Assembly (NCBI GenBank): GCA_001599295.1
Contig: BCGN01000010.1
Location: 310,001-374,000, forward strand
Reading direction: 5' to 3'
From: Sporopachydermia quercuum
Lineage: Eukaryota > Ascomycota > Sporopachydermiomycetes > Sporopachydermiales > Sporopachydermiaceae
Length of the DNA: 64,000 nucleotides
Below are positions 26,937 through 64,000 of the stretch, in pieces. Position numbers and translations under genes: made by a program. The stretch's first letter is position 1. Every line of letters starts with the position of its first letter. A model generated the notes under the pieces. It was not told the DNA's origin, did not search any database, and worked only from the letters and a program-made list of their open reading frames with translations.

Positions 26937-27840
26937 TTATTCTTCATCCTTGAATAAAGCTTCTCTCTTTTCAGCAATTCTTTGTTGTCTTCTTTCTCTA
27001 GCAGCCTTGGTTCTGGCACGTCTAGCTTCAGCTTCTTCAGCGAGAGACTTCTCTCTGGCAGCTTCAGCCTTGGCTTGGATGACATGTTCAATGAGTTGTC
27101 TCTTGTGCTTGAAAGTGTTACCCTTGACGGACTTATATAATTCGTGGTAAAGGTGCTTGTCAATCTTTCCAGAAGCTCTGTACTTAGCCAACAATCTTCT
27201 CAATACACGGACACGTCTCATCCATAAAACTTGAGATGGCATACGGGCTTCCTTGGTACCCTTACGCTTACCGTAACCAGTGTGACGACCGTTTCTCTTA
27301 GCTTCGTGTAAAGCACGAGTACGAGAGTTAGAGTGCACAGTGGTAGGCTTAGCAATGATGAGACCCTTGGAGACTAATTTTCTAATGTGTTCTCTAGAGT
27401 TGGCTTCACCAATGGTAGAAGTCTCATTGGGATCGAGCCAAATCTTTCTTTGACCAACACCCAAAACGGTGGAGGCGAGTCTCTTTTGAGTGCTGAGATT
27501 AGGCCTATCGATAATGAGTTAGTAAATATTCTCTATAAACATGTCTTTCTGATCGCACCACTGCATATACATCCTAGATTTCCTATCACGAAAATATAGC
27601 CTTGATTTTAGATACTGAAGTAGTTTAATATTTAATAACTGATGCTAAAAACTGTGAGGTANTTCGTTGTAATTGAGTACAATGATAATTCATATTCAGA
27701 TCACGTAGAACTTGTTGTAGATCCCCTTCCTACCTCCCTGATTGTTGTTCATTCATAACTCCATAACTCATTCTGTATACTCCGTGAACAGTGGCGCTTT
27801 CACAACATAAACTATCTCTGTGTCTCCTATATACGTACAT
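26937..27840 (-). CDS. RPL19: 60S ribosomal protein L19, start codon split by an intron
   Basis: The protein is eL19. Exon 2 (26937-27504) encodes all but the first two bases: [27 protein letters not shown] through the C-terminal helix [10 protein letters not shown]. The 3' splice site is clear: TACTAAC branch (27519-27525) and GATAG ending at 27505. The phase requires that exon 1 supply exactly AT of the initiator ATG. The best donor is AT|GTACGT at 27840-27833, giving a 334-nt intron, in the range of ribosomal-protein introns. A closer AT|GTATAT near 27570 would leave an intron of only about 66 nt. To my knowledge the S. cerevisiae RPL19 genes split the start codon at the same point. Exon 1 position is moderately certain; the gene identity is very secure. 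Confidence 0.93.
27505..27838 (-). other. RPL19 intron (5' donor inferred)
   Basis: Donor GTACGT (27838-27833), branch TACTAAC (27525-27519), acceptor TAG (27507-27505). No snoRNA-like box pair was recognised inside. One ambiguous base lies at 27662. The donor choice is supported by the same GTACGT donor in the cyclophilin gene of this window. Confidence 0.7.
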
Positions 27841-28484: not shown

Positions 28485-28867
28485 ATGGGTAAATCTATAA
28501 GATCAAAGTCAAAATTGGCTTTCAAAAGGATCAAGAGGGAAATTATCTCTGTTCCAGTGTTAACTGATAGGGCAAAACGACTAGCTGAAAAACTAGAAGG
28601 TAAGTGAGAGTTTTTTGTTGATCCTTTTAACTAACCATTGTGAATTATTTATTGACGAGAGTATTAGCCAAGAACCTAAACAAGGGAGGGTCATCTGAAA
28701 AGATGGAAGTAGAACAGGAACAGGCTACAAGCGTAAACACATCGAATGTCAGTACAAGTGGGTGGAAAGGATCGCGTCATGAAGGTTATAAAAAGAAAGT
28801 AAAGAGAGCTAAGAAGAACTCATTGACATTTCAAACTAAAAATAAGAACAAGAAAGGAAGAAAATAG
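28485..28867 (+). CDS. nucleolar YBL028C/LLP-family protein (DUF2423), one intron
   Basis: This is a small basic protein of 104 aa after splicing 28485-28599 to 28668-28867. The 68-nt intron starts GTAAGT, has the branch-like TAACTAAC (28627-28634) and ends TTAG. The N-terminus (MGKSIRSKSKLAFKRIKRE) and the C-terminal motif STSGWKGSRHEGYKKK, followed by a KK-rich tail, match S. cerevisiae YBL028C, a nucleolar protein linked to pre-ribosomes. In S. cerevisiae YBL028C also sits next to an RPL19 copy (RPL19B), which supports orthology. An alternative acceptor two codons upstream does not keep the frame. Confidence 0.87.
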
Positions 28868-37377: not shown

Positions 37378-38339
37378 TATGAAAATCCAATTGCACCTAT
37401 CTATCTTTGCGAAATCTTGATAAATGTCTGTCAACAACTTTTGGCCAGTTTTCGTTAATTAAACAAGTGATCAAATGATCAATTGTTCTTCCCACTTTAC
37501 TTATTCGCATTTCATGGTAATATCAAATCCAACTTGTAGCAGATATTAGTGGTTAAGACCTCAAGTCTCATCTTGAAAGTTTCTAAGAATTTTCAAAATA
37601 TTCTCTCCCAAAAAGGAAATTCTGCTATCTAATCCAGCAAAAGCCACACAGAGCTAGTAAAATGTTATAGGAAGAAACTGACAAGGACGCGACTATATTT
37701 GAAGCAGTATATAAATTATTTCATGGGCTTTCAAAAAGATGGAGAGTAAAGTAAATCAGTGATGTGATGCGTTTCAAATTATGAATGCCATTATGTCAAA
37801 TACGCTAGCTGTTTCAAACCGAACCAATATAATGGAAACACGTGAGAAAATGCAAAGGAGTAAGGGTATACATTATGTACATGTTGGTATCCCAGTGTAG
37901 ATTAAACAACAATCATTTACTATGAAGAGAAGTTTATACATACAACTGTCTACTGTTTTACATCATCGATTCTCTTCCGACTTGTGCTGACAAGAATAAG
38001 CAAGAAAACCTTAAAATCAAAATAGTGCTCTCCGCGACATGCAAGTTATGCGCACATGAATGCATGCTTTTGAACCTAAAATTTTGCAAAGACGAAAAAC
38101 AATTGAATGAGAACAGTGGAATGCCATTTGAATAATTCTTATATCTTTTGGCATAATAACAGCACAATCAATATATTCTGGAATAATCGATGAAGAAGAC
38201 ATATAAGTCAAGAATGATAATTGTTGCCATCACAGTTTGGTTTGTTGAAAGTTTGACAGTCTTAGTTAGCATTCTTAATTGATGTTTATAAGCTAGTAGG
38301 TATAAAAACGCATCTCATATCAACAGTTGCATTATCAAT
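37378..38339. other. divergent promoter region YFH1 / cyclophilin H
   Basis: About 960 bp between divergent starts. No ORF of quality is present; frames of 64-69 codons on the minus strand near 37958-38211 look random. An ACGCGA core occurs near 37688. Nothing else was recognised. Confidence 0.5.
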
Positions 38340-39224
38340 ATGAACAACGGCAATCCCATAGTGTTTTTCGATGTAAGTGTTTTAATAATTTGCTCTGGGT
38401 AAAATGGCTGTTACTGAGATAAGAATTTGAGCTAACAAACCCAAGATCGATCTAGGAAGTACGTATTTTCAAAGCATGGCTTTATATTGTAATAATGCAA
38501 CTACGTTATCGAGCAAACCAGTTAACCAAAAACTTATCAGGAATTCCACTAGGAAGAGTTAAATTTGAACTCTTTGCTGAAGAAACTCCTCGAACAGCAG
38601 AAAATTTCCGACAGTTTTGTATTGGTTATAGAGAGAATGGTAAAATAATAGGCTACAAGTCAACCAAGTTTCACCGAGTGGTAAGTATTTAATCTTCCTA
38701 CACCAACCATCATTTATGGAATTCCCATAGGCAATGATATACTAACATGATACTGACAGATTCGAGATTTTATGGTACGCAACTTTCAGGAGGCAGACAC
38801 AACTTGGCCAATTCAACCAATTAATATTGAATAACTCTAACAATTAATGCAGATACAAGGAGGTGATTTTATTCATCATGATGGAAGAGGTTCAAAGTCA
38901 ATATATGGACAGAGTTTTCCTGATGAAAAGTTCTTACCACGTAAGTAGTTTGATAGTGATATTAAATTTCAATAGAGATAAACAACTAACCAATAAATCT
39001 ATTCAGACTCTAAATATGCTCTCAGTATGGCTAATTCAGGGAAAGATACCAACGGATGTCAATTTTTCATATGCACAGGCGACTGTTCACATTTAGATGG
39101 GAGACATGTCGTATTTGGACGTGTCATTGAGGGACAAGATATTATTGATAAGATAAACGTGATTCGCACAGTTGATGAAAAACCCGTGACTGATATAAAC
39201 GTTGTTCAATGTGGGGAGATGTAA
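38340..39224 (+). CDS. cyclophilin H (spliceosomal peptidyl-prolyl isomerase), six exons with two microexons
   Basis: The 168-aa cyclophilin matches PPIH/USA-CyP, a U4/U6 snRNP component. The exons are 38340-38372, 38446-38458 (13 nt), 38541-38680, 38760-38774 (15 nt), 38853-38940 and 39007-39224. The product reads [26 protein letters not shown], then [57 protein letters not shown] and a QCGEM end, collinear with human PPIH without gaps at the exon joins. Every intron (66-82 nt) has a GTAAGT or GTACGY donor and an AG acceptor, and each has an AAC-ending branch-like site, with TACTAAC at 38740-38746. The catalytic Arg (FHRV), Phe and Gln (QGGDF) of cyclophilins are present. S. cerevisiae has no clear PPIH orthologue. 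Confidence 0.9.
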
Positions 39225-60033: not shown

Positions 60034-61797
60034 ATGGGACTGACTATCGAACAGAAGATAGAAGTTTGTCTTCTGGCAGAGTCAAATCCAAAGCTCACAC
60101 AGTCCGACTTATCAACTATCATTTCTAATCAGTATGGAATAGAAGCTCCGTCTCAAACGACAGTTTCACGTATTTTGAAGAATAAGCAATCTATTGTTGC
60201 ATCACGGGCTCATGAACTCAATCATAAAAGGAAAAGAAGGACGAAAGACTCTGTAGTATGTGCTACCTTACTAGAATGGATGGCTCAAGCTGTGTGGAAC
60301 GATATCCCTGTGTCAGCAGTATTGATCATGGGAACTGCTCAATTGATATGGAACCTGCTACCTTTAGATGTTAAACAGAGACAAGAGGATAATCCTCATA
60401 GTGGAAATAATGCAACGGGGAGACTGAAGAACGACGATAATGATTCCAATGACAACCATATGTTTGGTAGCAGATGGTGTTATAAGTTCCTAGCAAGAAA
60501 TAACCTAAGCATCAAAATGTTGGATCAGCAACTAAGGAAACCTTCAAAAATATGGACAATCAGTGAACGAGAAGAACTACGGAAGCATTTATCGCAATAT
60601 GCTGCAAAAGATATTTTCACATTGGATGATACAAATTTACTCTATTCTTTACCATTAGAAGCCCATGATGCTTCTGAACATCTAAGGAACTTTACCGAGA
60701 GGAGATCAAGGGCTTTGCTTTCAGTTCTATTAGCAGTGAATGGTGATGCCAGTGAACGAATATCGCCTCTGGTCGTAGGCACTTATGAGAATATGTCCTG
60801 CTTCAGGCGCAAAGGAAGAAACCATAAAGAAAAGCTTTTGTCTATGTATGGAATAGACTATAGGTCAAACAGAAGAGTATGGATTACTACAGCAATTATA
60901 CAGGATTGGCTTTTGATTCTTGATAAAAGGCTCCAAAACAGAAAGATAGCTTTCCTCATTGATGATTCAGCATCTCATCGCTGTATCAATTTGAAATTAG
61001 AGAACATTGAGTTAGTTTATGTCTCGGCAATGAATACTTTCTTACCATTTGATTGGGGTATCACCGATGAACTGAAAATCAACTATAGATACTTCCAATA
61101 TTCATATGTGCGGAAAATTTGTTCTACGCCCGAAGCAGTGCTTCTAGGGAACAATTTATTTCCTCTTCAGGAACAGATTGACATGATCAAGAGAGAAATG
61201 GAAGTAGACTTTGAACAAGCCTTACAATGGTTAAGTGAATCATGGAGCAAAATATCAAAGAATAGAATCTTGCAATGCTGGAAATACTCTGGCGTTTTAC
61301 CTTATCCTATAAAAGTTCCATTATATGATATGGTAGAAAAAACATCCGAGGAGCAGCTTCAGGAACTTATTGATGAGATAGGACTAATGGATTTTTGGCG
61401 GAATCCAATTATATATCCTGTGTTGGAATTGTATGATGCTAATCAGTTACTGATTGTTCCTATGGAACAGAAAACAAAGTTTTATTTAACGACAGAAGAA
61501 TTGATTGACTCATGTATTATAGACGAGGTTGAACCTGAGCCTGAGAAGAAGAAAAGAAGCCTATTTGATGTGAACTCAACAGCAGAAGAAATAGAACCAC
61601 TCTCTTCAAAGAAATCAAAGGTTGAGACAAAAAAAGCTGGAAATGATGTTAATGATATTGTAAACAAGCTATCTAGTTTGATAAAAATGTATGATGATGA
61701 CTTTTTGGACATAAAGTCGTTGTTGTCTGAAGCTTCAGTTCAAGAACTCACTAATGCACTTTCATACTACAAGCAAGTATCATCGACTTCGCTATAA
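60034..61797 (+). CDS. PDC2: Pdc2-type transcription factor derived from a pogo/CENP-B-like transposase
   Basis: Pdc2 activates pyruvate decarboxylase and thiamine genes in S. cerevisiae. This 587-aa protein has the same domain order: an N-terminal helix-turn-helix (EQKIEVCLLAESNPKLTQ, TTVSRILKNK; residues 5-51), a CENP-B/Tc5-type second HTH (LLEWMAQAVWNDIPV through RWCYKFLARNNLSI; 60-160), and a DDE_1-type domain (about 190-360). Blocks parallel Pdc2 closely, including AKDIFTLDDTNLLYSLPL, HSNRKAW-like RSNRRVWIT, and FLIDDSASHRCINLKLENIELVY. The acidic positions D198, D310/311 and D340 are all present. PET100 is convergent next door, as PET100 and PDC2 are near neighbours in S. cerevisiae. 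I see no terminal inverted repeats, so this looks like a resident host gene. Confidence 0.9.
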   Translation: MGLTIEQKIEVCLLAESNPKLTQSDLSTIISNQYGIEAPSQTTVSRILKNKQSIVASRAHELNHKRKRRTKDSVVCATLLEWMAQAVWNDIPVSAVLIMGTAQLIWNLLPLDVKQRQEDNPHSGNNATGRLKNDDNDSNDNHMFGSRWCYKFLARNNLSIKMLDQQLRKPSKIWTISEREELRKHLSQYAAKDIFTLDDTNLLYSLPLEAHDASEHLRNFTERRSRALLSVLLAVNGDASERISPLVVGTYENMSCFRRKGRNHKEKLLSMYGIDYRSNRRVWITTAIIQDWLLILDKRLQNRKIAFLIDDSASHRCINLKLENIELVYVSAMNTFLPFDWGITDELKINYRYFQYSYVRKICSTPEAVLLGNNLFPLQEQIDMIKREMEVDFEQALQWLSESWSKISKNRILQCWKYSGVLPYPIKVPLYDMVEKTSEEQLQELIDEIGLMDFWRNPIIYPVLELYDANQLLIVPMEQKTKFYLTTEELIDSCIIDEVEPEPEKKKRSLFDVNSTAEEIEPLSSKKSKVETKKAGNDVNDIVNKLSSLIKMYDDDFLDIKSLLSEASVQELTNALSYYKQVSSTSL

Positions 61798-62040: not shown

Positions 62041-62541
62041 CTATTTCTGCCTAATATTTTCACCTTCACCTTCTTTTGAGGCTGCCTCCTCTGTTTGCCC
62101 TTCCTCCTCATCTAAATTTAATCCTAGTTCTTCAGCTCTCTTCTCCAGACGTAGTCTTCTAGCGATTCTTTCTTGTCTCATTCTTTCTAATTCAGCTTGA
62201 ATCAGATGCTTTTCTTTGGGAATCTTGTTTAGCGTTTCGGGATCAGGCCAAAAACCTGCAACGTTGAATTTCTTGTCAGTGTCGATTCCCACATAGTACA
62301 TCACAGCAATAGGTGTTGTTAGATAGAATGCGAACTACAATGATTAGTTATTATCGCTAATTTCATTAAAATACCAACAAAACAAACAGCAGGACTAATG
62401 TATAGCTTATTATCTACTAGGAAAGCTCGCTTCCACTAATATCAATCTATTGCCCTATTTCCTTTTGTCCACCCTCTCACTACTTACTCTGAACACTTCC
62501 AACTGCTGTCTGGTGATTTTACTGAAAAATCGAGAAAACAT
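62041..62541 (-). CDS. PET100: Pet100, cytochrome c oxidase assembly factor, one intron
   Basis: This 115-aa inner mitochondrial membrane protein helps assemble complex IV. Exon 1 (62488-62541) encodes MFSRFFSKITRQQLEVFR. A 153-nt intron (62335-62487) begins GTAAGT, has branch-like TAACTAAT and ends TAG. Exon 2 (62041-62334) starts FAFYLTTPIAVMYYVG. The join recreates the Pet100 signature LEVFRF...PVAVMYYIG seen in S. cerevisiae, followed by TDKKFNVAGFWPDPETLNKIPKE and a charged helix (MRQERIARRLRLEKRAEELG). One transmembrane segment is at the N-terminus. Length and motif order match the family (111 aa in S. cerevisiae). The neighbour, PDC2, is also conserved. Confidence 0.94.
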
Positions 62542-63627: not shown

Positions 63628-64000
63628 ATGTCTTACTACTATACAGGCAACCCAATACAGGAGATCTTAGAAGCTCTTACTGGTGGTGCCTCCGGTTCGG
63701 CTGATCAGAATCCTACAAACAGAAGATCTGGTCAAAGAGGTGGAAGACAATATCAAAGAGGGGCGTACGATAGTCCTTTTTACTATCAGTATGCTGATCC
63801 ATCTACTAGTAGAGGCAATCAAAGATACTCAAGAAGACCAGAGAGACCATTTGAAAGAGAATATTATACACCTGACGATAGTGATTATAGATATGCTAGG
63901 AGACCAACTGGCGGAAGGGGTTCTTATGGTAATCAACAAAGAGGACACGCTAGAAGACCTAACAGACCAGCAACAGAAACTTATGGACAAAGTGAAATTT
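63628..64000 (+). CDS. Hsp42-like small heat-shock protein, N-terminal part only
   Basis: The gene runs off the window, and the 124 visible codons are all open. The start MSYYYTGNPIQEILEALTGG resembles S. cerevisiae Hsp42 (MSFYQPSLSLYDVLNALSNQ). It is followed by an R/G/Q/Y-rich prion-like segment (GQRGGRQYQRG, YYQYADPS, RRPERPFE, GGRGSYGNQQRG), as in Hsp42's N-terminal domain, which promotes stress-induced aggregate sorting. The alpha-crystallin domain that would settle the call lies beyond the edge. The promoter carries a perfect five-unit heat-shock element. An in-frame ATG at 63538 would add 30 residues (MTYHNQLDNSKVYEPN...); I prefer 63628 on similarity. Another RG-rich protein is the main alternative. 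Confidence 0.65.
   Translation, partial: MSYYYTGNPIQEILEALTGGASGSADQNPTNRRSGQRGGRQYQRGAYDSPFYYQYADPSTSRGNQRYSRRPERPFEREYYTPDDSDYRYARRPTGGRGSYGNQQRGHARRPNRPATETYGQSEI

Follow-up and report, generated by a model that had tools for sequence, protein, structure and literature searches.

A predicted cyclophilin H gene with two microexons in the budding yeast Sporopachydermia quercuum

Can a budding yeast gene contain coding exons of only 13 and 15 nt, each placed between short introns? A locus of Sporopachydermia quercuum raises this question, as joining two such exons to four longer ones gives a translation that reads as a cyclophilin, probably of the PPIH (CypH) type. We analyzed this locus together with the window in which it lies, which is the whole 64,000-nt stretch of DNA under study, and asked how well each of the short exons is supported, to which subfamily the product belongs, and how uncommon such a gene would be for a yeast.

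Gene structure and a proposed mode of splicing

The joined exons comprise 507 nt, encoding 168 codons and a stop without any internal stop (Table 1). This agrees with the initial annotation, which described a 168-codon gene with five introns of 66 to 82 nt. All five introns have GT...AG ends and one YTAAC motif apiece, the distances from the branch A to the intron end being 10, 15, 14, 12, and 17 nt for introns 1 to 5 and the intron phases 0, 1, 0, 0, and 1. Retention of any single intron, in all five cases, introduces a premature stop. Taking a microexon as an exon of 3 to 30 nt that is included in mRNA, exons 2 and 4 both match this class in length and flanking signals, as they are bounded by AG and GT and preceded by YTAAC motifs ahead of their acceptors; their inclusion is supported by protein homology and would make them microexons in full. 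A TATAAAA sequence occurs at 38301, 5' of exon 1. The window contains 33 isolated single N positions, which may be ambiguous or heterozygous bases; none falls within the PPIH gene.

Table 1 Features of the PPIH locus and other intron-bearing genes of the window
Feature	Coordinates	Strand	Length (nt)	Details
PPIH exon 1	38340..38372	+	33	11 residues; intron 1 follows in phase 0; from spliced translation
PPIH intron 1	38373..38445	+	73	GTAAGT...GCTAAC...AAG
PPIH exon 2 (microexon)	38446..38458	+	13	ATCGATCTAGGAA; codes IDLG and base 1 of R
PPIH intron 2	38459..38540	+	82	GTACGT donor; TTAAC; CAG
PPIH exon 3	38541..38680	+	140	Runs to FHRV
PPIH intron 3	38681..38759	+	79	GTAAGT...TACTAAC...CAG
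PPIH exon 4 (microexon)	38760..38774	+	15	ATTCGAGATTTTATG; codes IRDFM
PPIH intron 4	38775..38852	+	78	GTACGC donor; CTCTAAC; CAG
PPIH exon 5	38853..38940	+	88	IQGGDF... to P
PPIH intron 5	38941..39006	+	66	GTAAGT...AACTAAC...CAG
PPIH exon 6	39007..39224	+	218	Ends QCGEM-stop; aligned to human PPIH
NDUFS4				One predicted intron
eL19	27505..27838 (intron, 334 nt)	-		One predicted intron
NOP25/RRP17-like				Two predicted introns
YBL028C-like				One predicted intron
PET100-like	62335..62487	-		One predicted intron

The explanation that we favor, with a probability of roughly 0.87, is that this is an ordinary PPIH/CypH-type gene of an intron-containing budding yeast, in which five short U2-type introns would be removed by intron definition, the 13-nt and 15-nt exons would be included constitutively, and the introns themselves would be old ones that were retained. 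Under intron definition, splice sites would pair across each intron. Because no cross-exon complex would have to assemble in this proposal, exons as short as these could stay as constitutive coding exons. Skipping of exon 2 brings in a stop at the fourth codon past the junction; the exon would be essential to the frame, and transcripts that omit it would probably decay. Skipping of exon 4 leaves the frame intact and complete but removes five residues, IRDFM, which would adjoin the active site if that site is placed as in cyclophilin A. As for the number of introns, the likeliest account is that they are ancient ones, kept in a gene that would have been spared the intron loss of its lineage. 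If spliced as predicted, the gene offers a compact natural test case of how a yeast-type spliceosome handles such exons amid short introns, and it cautions that automated prediction could get genes of this structure wrong.

Support for the two microexons

To evaluate the microexons, we enumerated one-intron and two-intron GT-AG structures between fixed ends, with introns of at least 40 nt and a middle exon of 3 to 60 nt, and scored each structure by how well its product aligned with human PPIH and with a second cyclophilin, 1z81. Between exons 3 and 5, the structure containing the exon 4 microexon ranked first of 255 open in-frame structures (score of 249; runner-up, 234), and the top structure without a microexon scored 215. 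Between exons 1 and 3, the structure containing the exon 2 microexon ranked first of 494 (score of 190; runner-up, 185). The same scoring was applied to 1,000 shuffles of the inter-exon DNA, with dinucleotides kept and the outer donor and acceptor fixed. No shuffle (0 of 1,000) was as good as the real sequence for exon 4, with splice-signal demands on or off, and the top shuffle by protein match alone scored 239. For exon 2, 133 of the 1,000 shuffles equaled or exceeded the real score when judged by protein match alone with any GT-AG ends (top shuffle, 204). When the donor and branch pattern was demanded, none did (top shuffle, 187), a result to which we give less weight because the pattern was drawn up with these very introns in view and because no admissible structure arose in half or more of the shuffles.

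The signal pattern by itself (YTAAC..AG, 3-30 nt, GTA[ACT]G[TC]) is not rare, because it occurs 3 times in the window, compared with a mean of 4.29 and a maximum of 10 in 100 whole-window shuffles. Two of these occurrences are exons 2 and 4 of PPIH. The remaining one, at 28571-28599, was rejected as a third microexon candidate since it falls within the first exon of the YBL028C-like gene, which is open and apparently ordinary, and a microexon suspected in NDUFS4 was rejected since a single intron restores the alignment. The weight of the evidence comes from both microexons sharing one gene, in frame, with residues that fit. Exon 4 is well supported beyond chance, and exon 2 is less secure; of the two microexons claimed by the initial annotation, the 15-nt exon thus appears firmly supported and the 13-nt exon well supported but short of proof.

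We considered whether exon 4 could be a regulated cassette exon, the skipping of which would give an altered isoform lacking IRDFM. Its length preserves the frame, its downstream donor is the farthest of the five from GTAAGT, and exon skipping is reported in four genes of Yarrowia lipolytica (PMC2911113). However, the IRDFM stretch is ungapped in the five PDB alignments printed, and for this reason its loss should harm the fold. Regulated skipping of exon 4 seems unlikely to us, and constitutive inclusion is the reading that we carry forward.

A second possibility concerns exon 2, which would be no exon at all if a single intron (38373-38521) were removed and exon 3 began 19 nt earlier. This arrangement is in frame and open, and it scores 179 with the GTAAGT donor, or 183 if the donor is instead GTTTTA at 38379, versus 190 for the microexon model. 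However, the closest YTAAC 5' of 38521 begins at 38432, about 85 nt away, and none lies within 80 nt, whereas the introns of the microexon model end 10 to 17 nt past the branch A. The peptide would also gain extra residues and lose the I-x-[IL]-G pattern that the exon 2 region has in common with 1z81 and 8b58. We therefore consider it improbable that exon 2 is absent. There would also be little need for a stwintron, a nested pair in which an inner intron interrupts a splice signal of an outer one, since two introns and a coding microexon already account for the frame.

Subfamily of the encoded cyclophilin

Pro_isomerase (PF00160) was the sole Pfam family reported for the product, covering residues 12 to 166 of 168 with an E value of 1.9e-47. 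A phmmer search of the PDB gave 161 distinct sequences at an E value of 0.001 or better. Among the 60 shown, the leading matches were 1z81 (7.4e-56), which is tabulated merely as "cyclophilin" and which we take to be a Plasmodium yoelii protein, and human PPIH (also known as CypH, USA-Cyp, and U4/U6-20K; 1mzw; 5e-55), followed by 8b58 and 8r7s (1.2e-52), PPIG (1e-49), and PPIF and PPIA chains (about 1e-48 and weaker). In a blastp comparison of eight sequences, the window protein matched 1z81 with 182 bits, human PPIH with 181, 8b58 with 175, PPIG with 164, and the remaining three with 152 to 153; here 8b58 and 1z81 were classed as PPIH type by alignment, without a label. A tree of eight sequences separated the window protein and the three PPIH-type sequences from PPIG, Cpr1, 2cfe, and PPIF with support of 88/90. 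Because this support is below the program's mark of 95/80, we regard membership in the PPIH subfamily as likely, short of proof.

Like human PPIH, the window protein is predicted to be a lone cyclophilin domain that ends in QCGEM, and the two are 57% identical. They have in common the motifs ENFRQFC and NGCQFFI and an extended alpha1-beta3 loop before GYK, which in human PPIH binds PRPF4 (PMC6315705). Set against CTGEFRKDGVPIGYK, the window loop is one residue shorter. The initial annotation had called the cyclophilin H "gap-free" once both microexons were included. This holds at both microexon junctions, but not overall, as the blastp alignment to human PPIH contains 4 gap positions in 168 columns.

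Could the product instead be a PPIG-like or general cyclophilin, with no PPIH orthologue at this locus? PPIG is 51% identical to the window protein, an 11-residue stretch is also PPIG-like, and the modest tree support noted above leaves room for such a placement. In addition, the exon 6 segment SHLDG has a His at the position of Trp133 of human PPIH, and PPIG likewise has His. On the other hand, all three PPIH-type sequences give higher bit scores than PPIG, and the two motifs and the longer loop are found in both the window protein and human PPIH. A PPIG-like or general cyclophilin is, in our view, a doubtful identification, and we continue to treat the product as a probable PPIH.

From its family, we infer a spliceosomal role and U4/U6 association for the window protein. 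Schizosaccharomyces pombe Cyp3 is reportedly "cyclosporin A insensitive," in the words of the title of a cited reference, and by analogy this insensitivity may be common to Cyp3 and the window protein with its His at the Trp133 position. The initial annotation presumed that cyclophilin H is absent from Saccharomyces cerevisiae. In the relevant portion of one published table (PMC4825928), Cyp3 is placed next to PPIH, and Saccharomyces cerevisiae Cpr1 occupies the PPIH slot. In our eight-sequence tree, by contrast, Cpr1 branches apart from the PPIH-type sequences, a split that has modest support. A budding yeast with PPIH in an intron-dense gene could be useful for research on this spliceosomal cyclophilin, possibly absent from the standard laboratory yeast.

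Introns in the window and in other yeasts

We counted 21 genes in the window, including two long open reading frames without a Pfam match and leaving out a coding-like stretch at 63643-63996. Introns were found in 6 of these 21 genes, and the five genes besides PPIH have one or two predicted introns each. Of the 11 introns, 5 belong to PPIH, which supplies 0.5 kb of the roughly 34.8 kb of coding sequence. This corresponds to 9.9 introns per kb in PPIH versus 0.18 per kb elsewhere in the window, a count in which introns adjoining long open reading frames or in unrecognized small genes may be missed. The donors GTAAGT, GTATGT, and GTACGT recur in introns predicted in other genes of the window. 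In the eL19 gene, an apparent 334-nt intron with donor GTACGT splits the start codon after AT, and joining to the G gives MPNLSTQKR. The predicted intron of the PET100-like gene, whose Pfam match (E value of 0.013) is under the cut-off, has donor GTAAGT and a branch-like AACTAAT.

The donors 3' of both microexons, GTACGT and GTACGC, deviate from the GTAAGT consensus of the other three PPIH introns and carry a C at position +4. A link of +4C donors to microexons is made less convincing because the predicted eL19 intron also begins with GTACGT and because, by hand arithmetic, two off-consensus donors among five introns would land on precisely this pair with a chance of 1 in 10. GUACGU is listed as a Lipomyces donor in part of one report (PMC7138796), and nearly all +4 changes of the 5' splice site described in passages on Saccharomycotina are A/U switches (PMC10581693); we infer that +4C is a minority donor form in this group. 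We think it very improbable that the microexons of this splicing-factor gene work as a sensor, their inclusion depending on splicing capacity so that PPIH output would mirror the condition of the spliceosome for which PPIH works.

Published accounts of yeast introns, as far as their consulted sections extend, place the gene in context. Y. lipolytica has 951 intron-containing genes, of which 109 have more than one intron and 2 have five, and the internal exons of its multi-intron genes are mainly short, with a minimum of 4 nt confirmed by two cDNAs (PMC2911113). These genes resemble the window PPIH in having up to five introns and short internal exons; they differ in that their exons are cDNA validated, whereas those of the window gene are predicted. 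Introns occur in 35% of Geotrichum candidum genes, with a median of 71 nt (PMC4479816), and 1,706 genes of T. vanleenenianus hold 2,362 introns (PMC13130702). Multi-intron genes make up 21.5% in B. adeninivorans versus 11.5% in Y. lipolytica (PMC4022394), and L. starkeyi has 1.1 introns per kb, against an apparent mean of 0.04 over 36 Saccharomycotina (PMC8476143). Fungal microexons are described as little studied and tested experimentally in S. pombe alone (PMC11121469). The same source reports a microexon in Xlr2 of Trichoderma virens, which is likewise an ascomycete microexon but differs from those of PPIH in being a regulated switch in a transcription factor.

The initial annotation considered this intron density and exon size "very unusual for a budding yeast." That statement was too strong given the short exons of Y. 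lipolytica and the short introns of G. candidum, although five introns in one gene are still rare (2 of 951 intron-containing genes in Y. lipolytica) (PMC2911113, PMC4479816). The contrast in introns with the rest of the window goes some way to justify the surprise, but the mere fact that budding yeasts have short exons does not, and the two-microexon PPIH is a neat example of something that yeasts are already known to have. The word "cyclophilin" is absent from the main text of PMC2911113, and no tie of the short exons of Y. lipolytica to PPIH was found there; the text of PMC13309789, on Y. lipolytica introns, contains neither "microexon" nor "internal exon." Among the papers listed by searches of open-licence literature, most of them judged at listing level, none was seen that describes a yeast PPIH gene with microexons.

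Other genes of the window bear on the background of the locus. The four CTG codons in the aligned domains of IRE1 (985, 1015, 1216, and 1298) fall on Leu positions that are also Leu in the best-matching IRE1 chain, and for this reason CTG reads as Leu in the window. IRE1 and DNA polymerase eta have their best matches in chains that we take to be from S. cerevisiae, with human chains far behind. The eL19 protein scores 291.6 bits with the K. lactis (KLLA) chain, 289.4 with 7pzy, 277 with S. cerevisiae chains, and at most 271 with filamentous fungi and others, where 7pzy is presumably from C. albicans and the S. cerevisiae, filamentous, and other chains are likewise presumed to be from those species. 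An NDUFS4 gene is present; Saccharomycetaceae are not known to have complex I. Together, these features suit a member of the Saccharomycotina that lies beyond both the CTG-recoded clades and the Saccharomycetaceae, a rough placement because few fungal species are represented in the PDB. An open frame of 587 residues at 60034-61797 (plus strand) has DDE_1 and Tc5-type DNA-binding matches, and its product is possibly a transposase, perhaps domesticated. Over the whole window, ARAGORN found no tRNA and no Rfam family reached its gathering score.

Relatives of the cyclophilin were also sought in two collections of contigs. A search of viral contigs gave four cyclophilin loci with 34 to 39% identity. 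Among genome contigs, at least 595 stretches matched, at least 594 of which encode a relative, and the best 80 of the 594 relatives all stand under bacterial or archaeal record titles.
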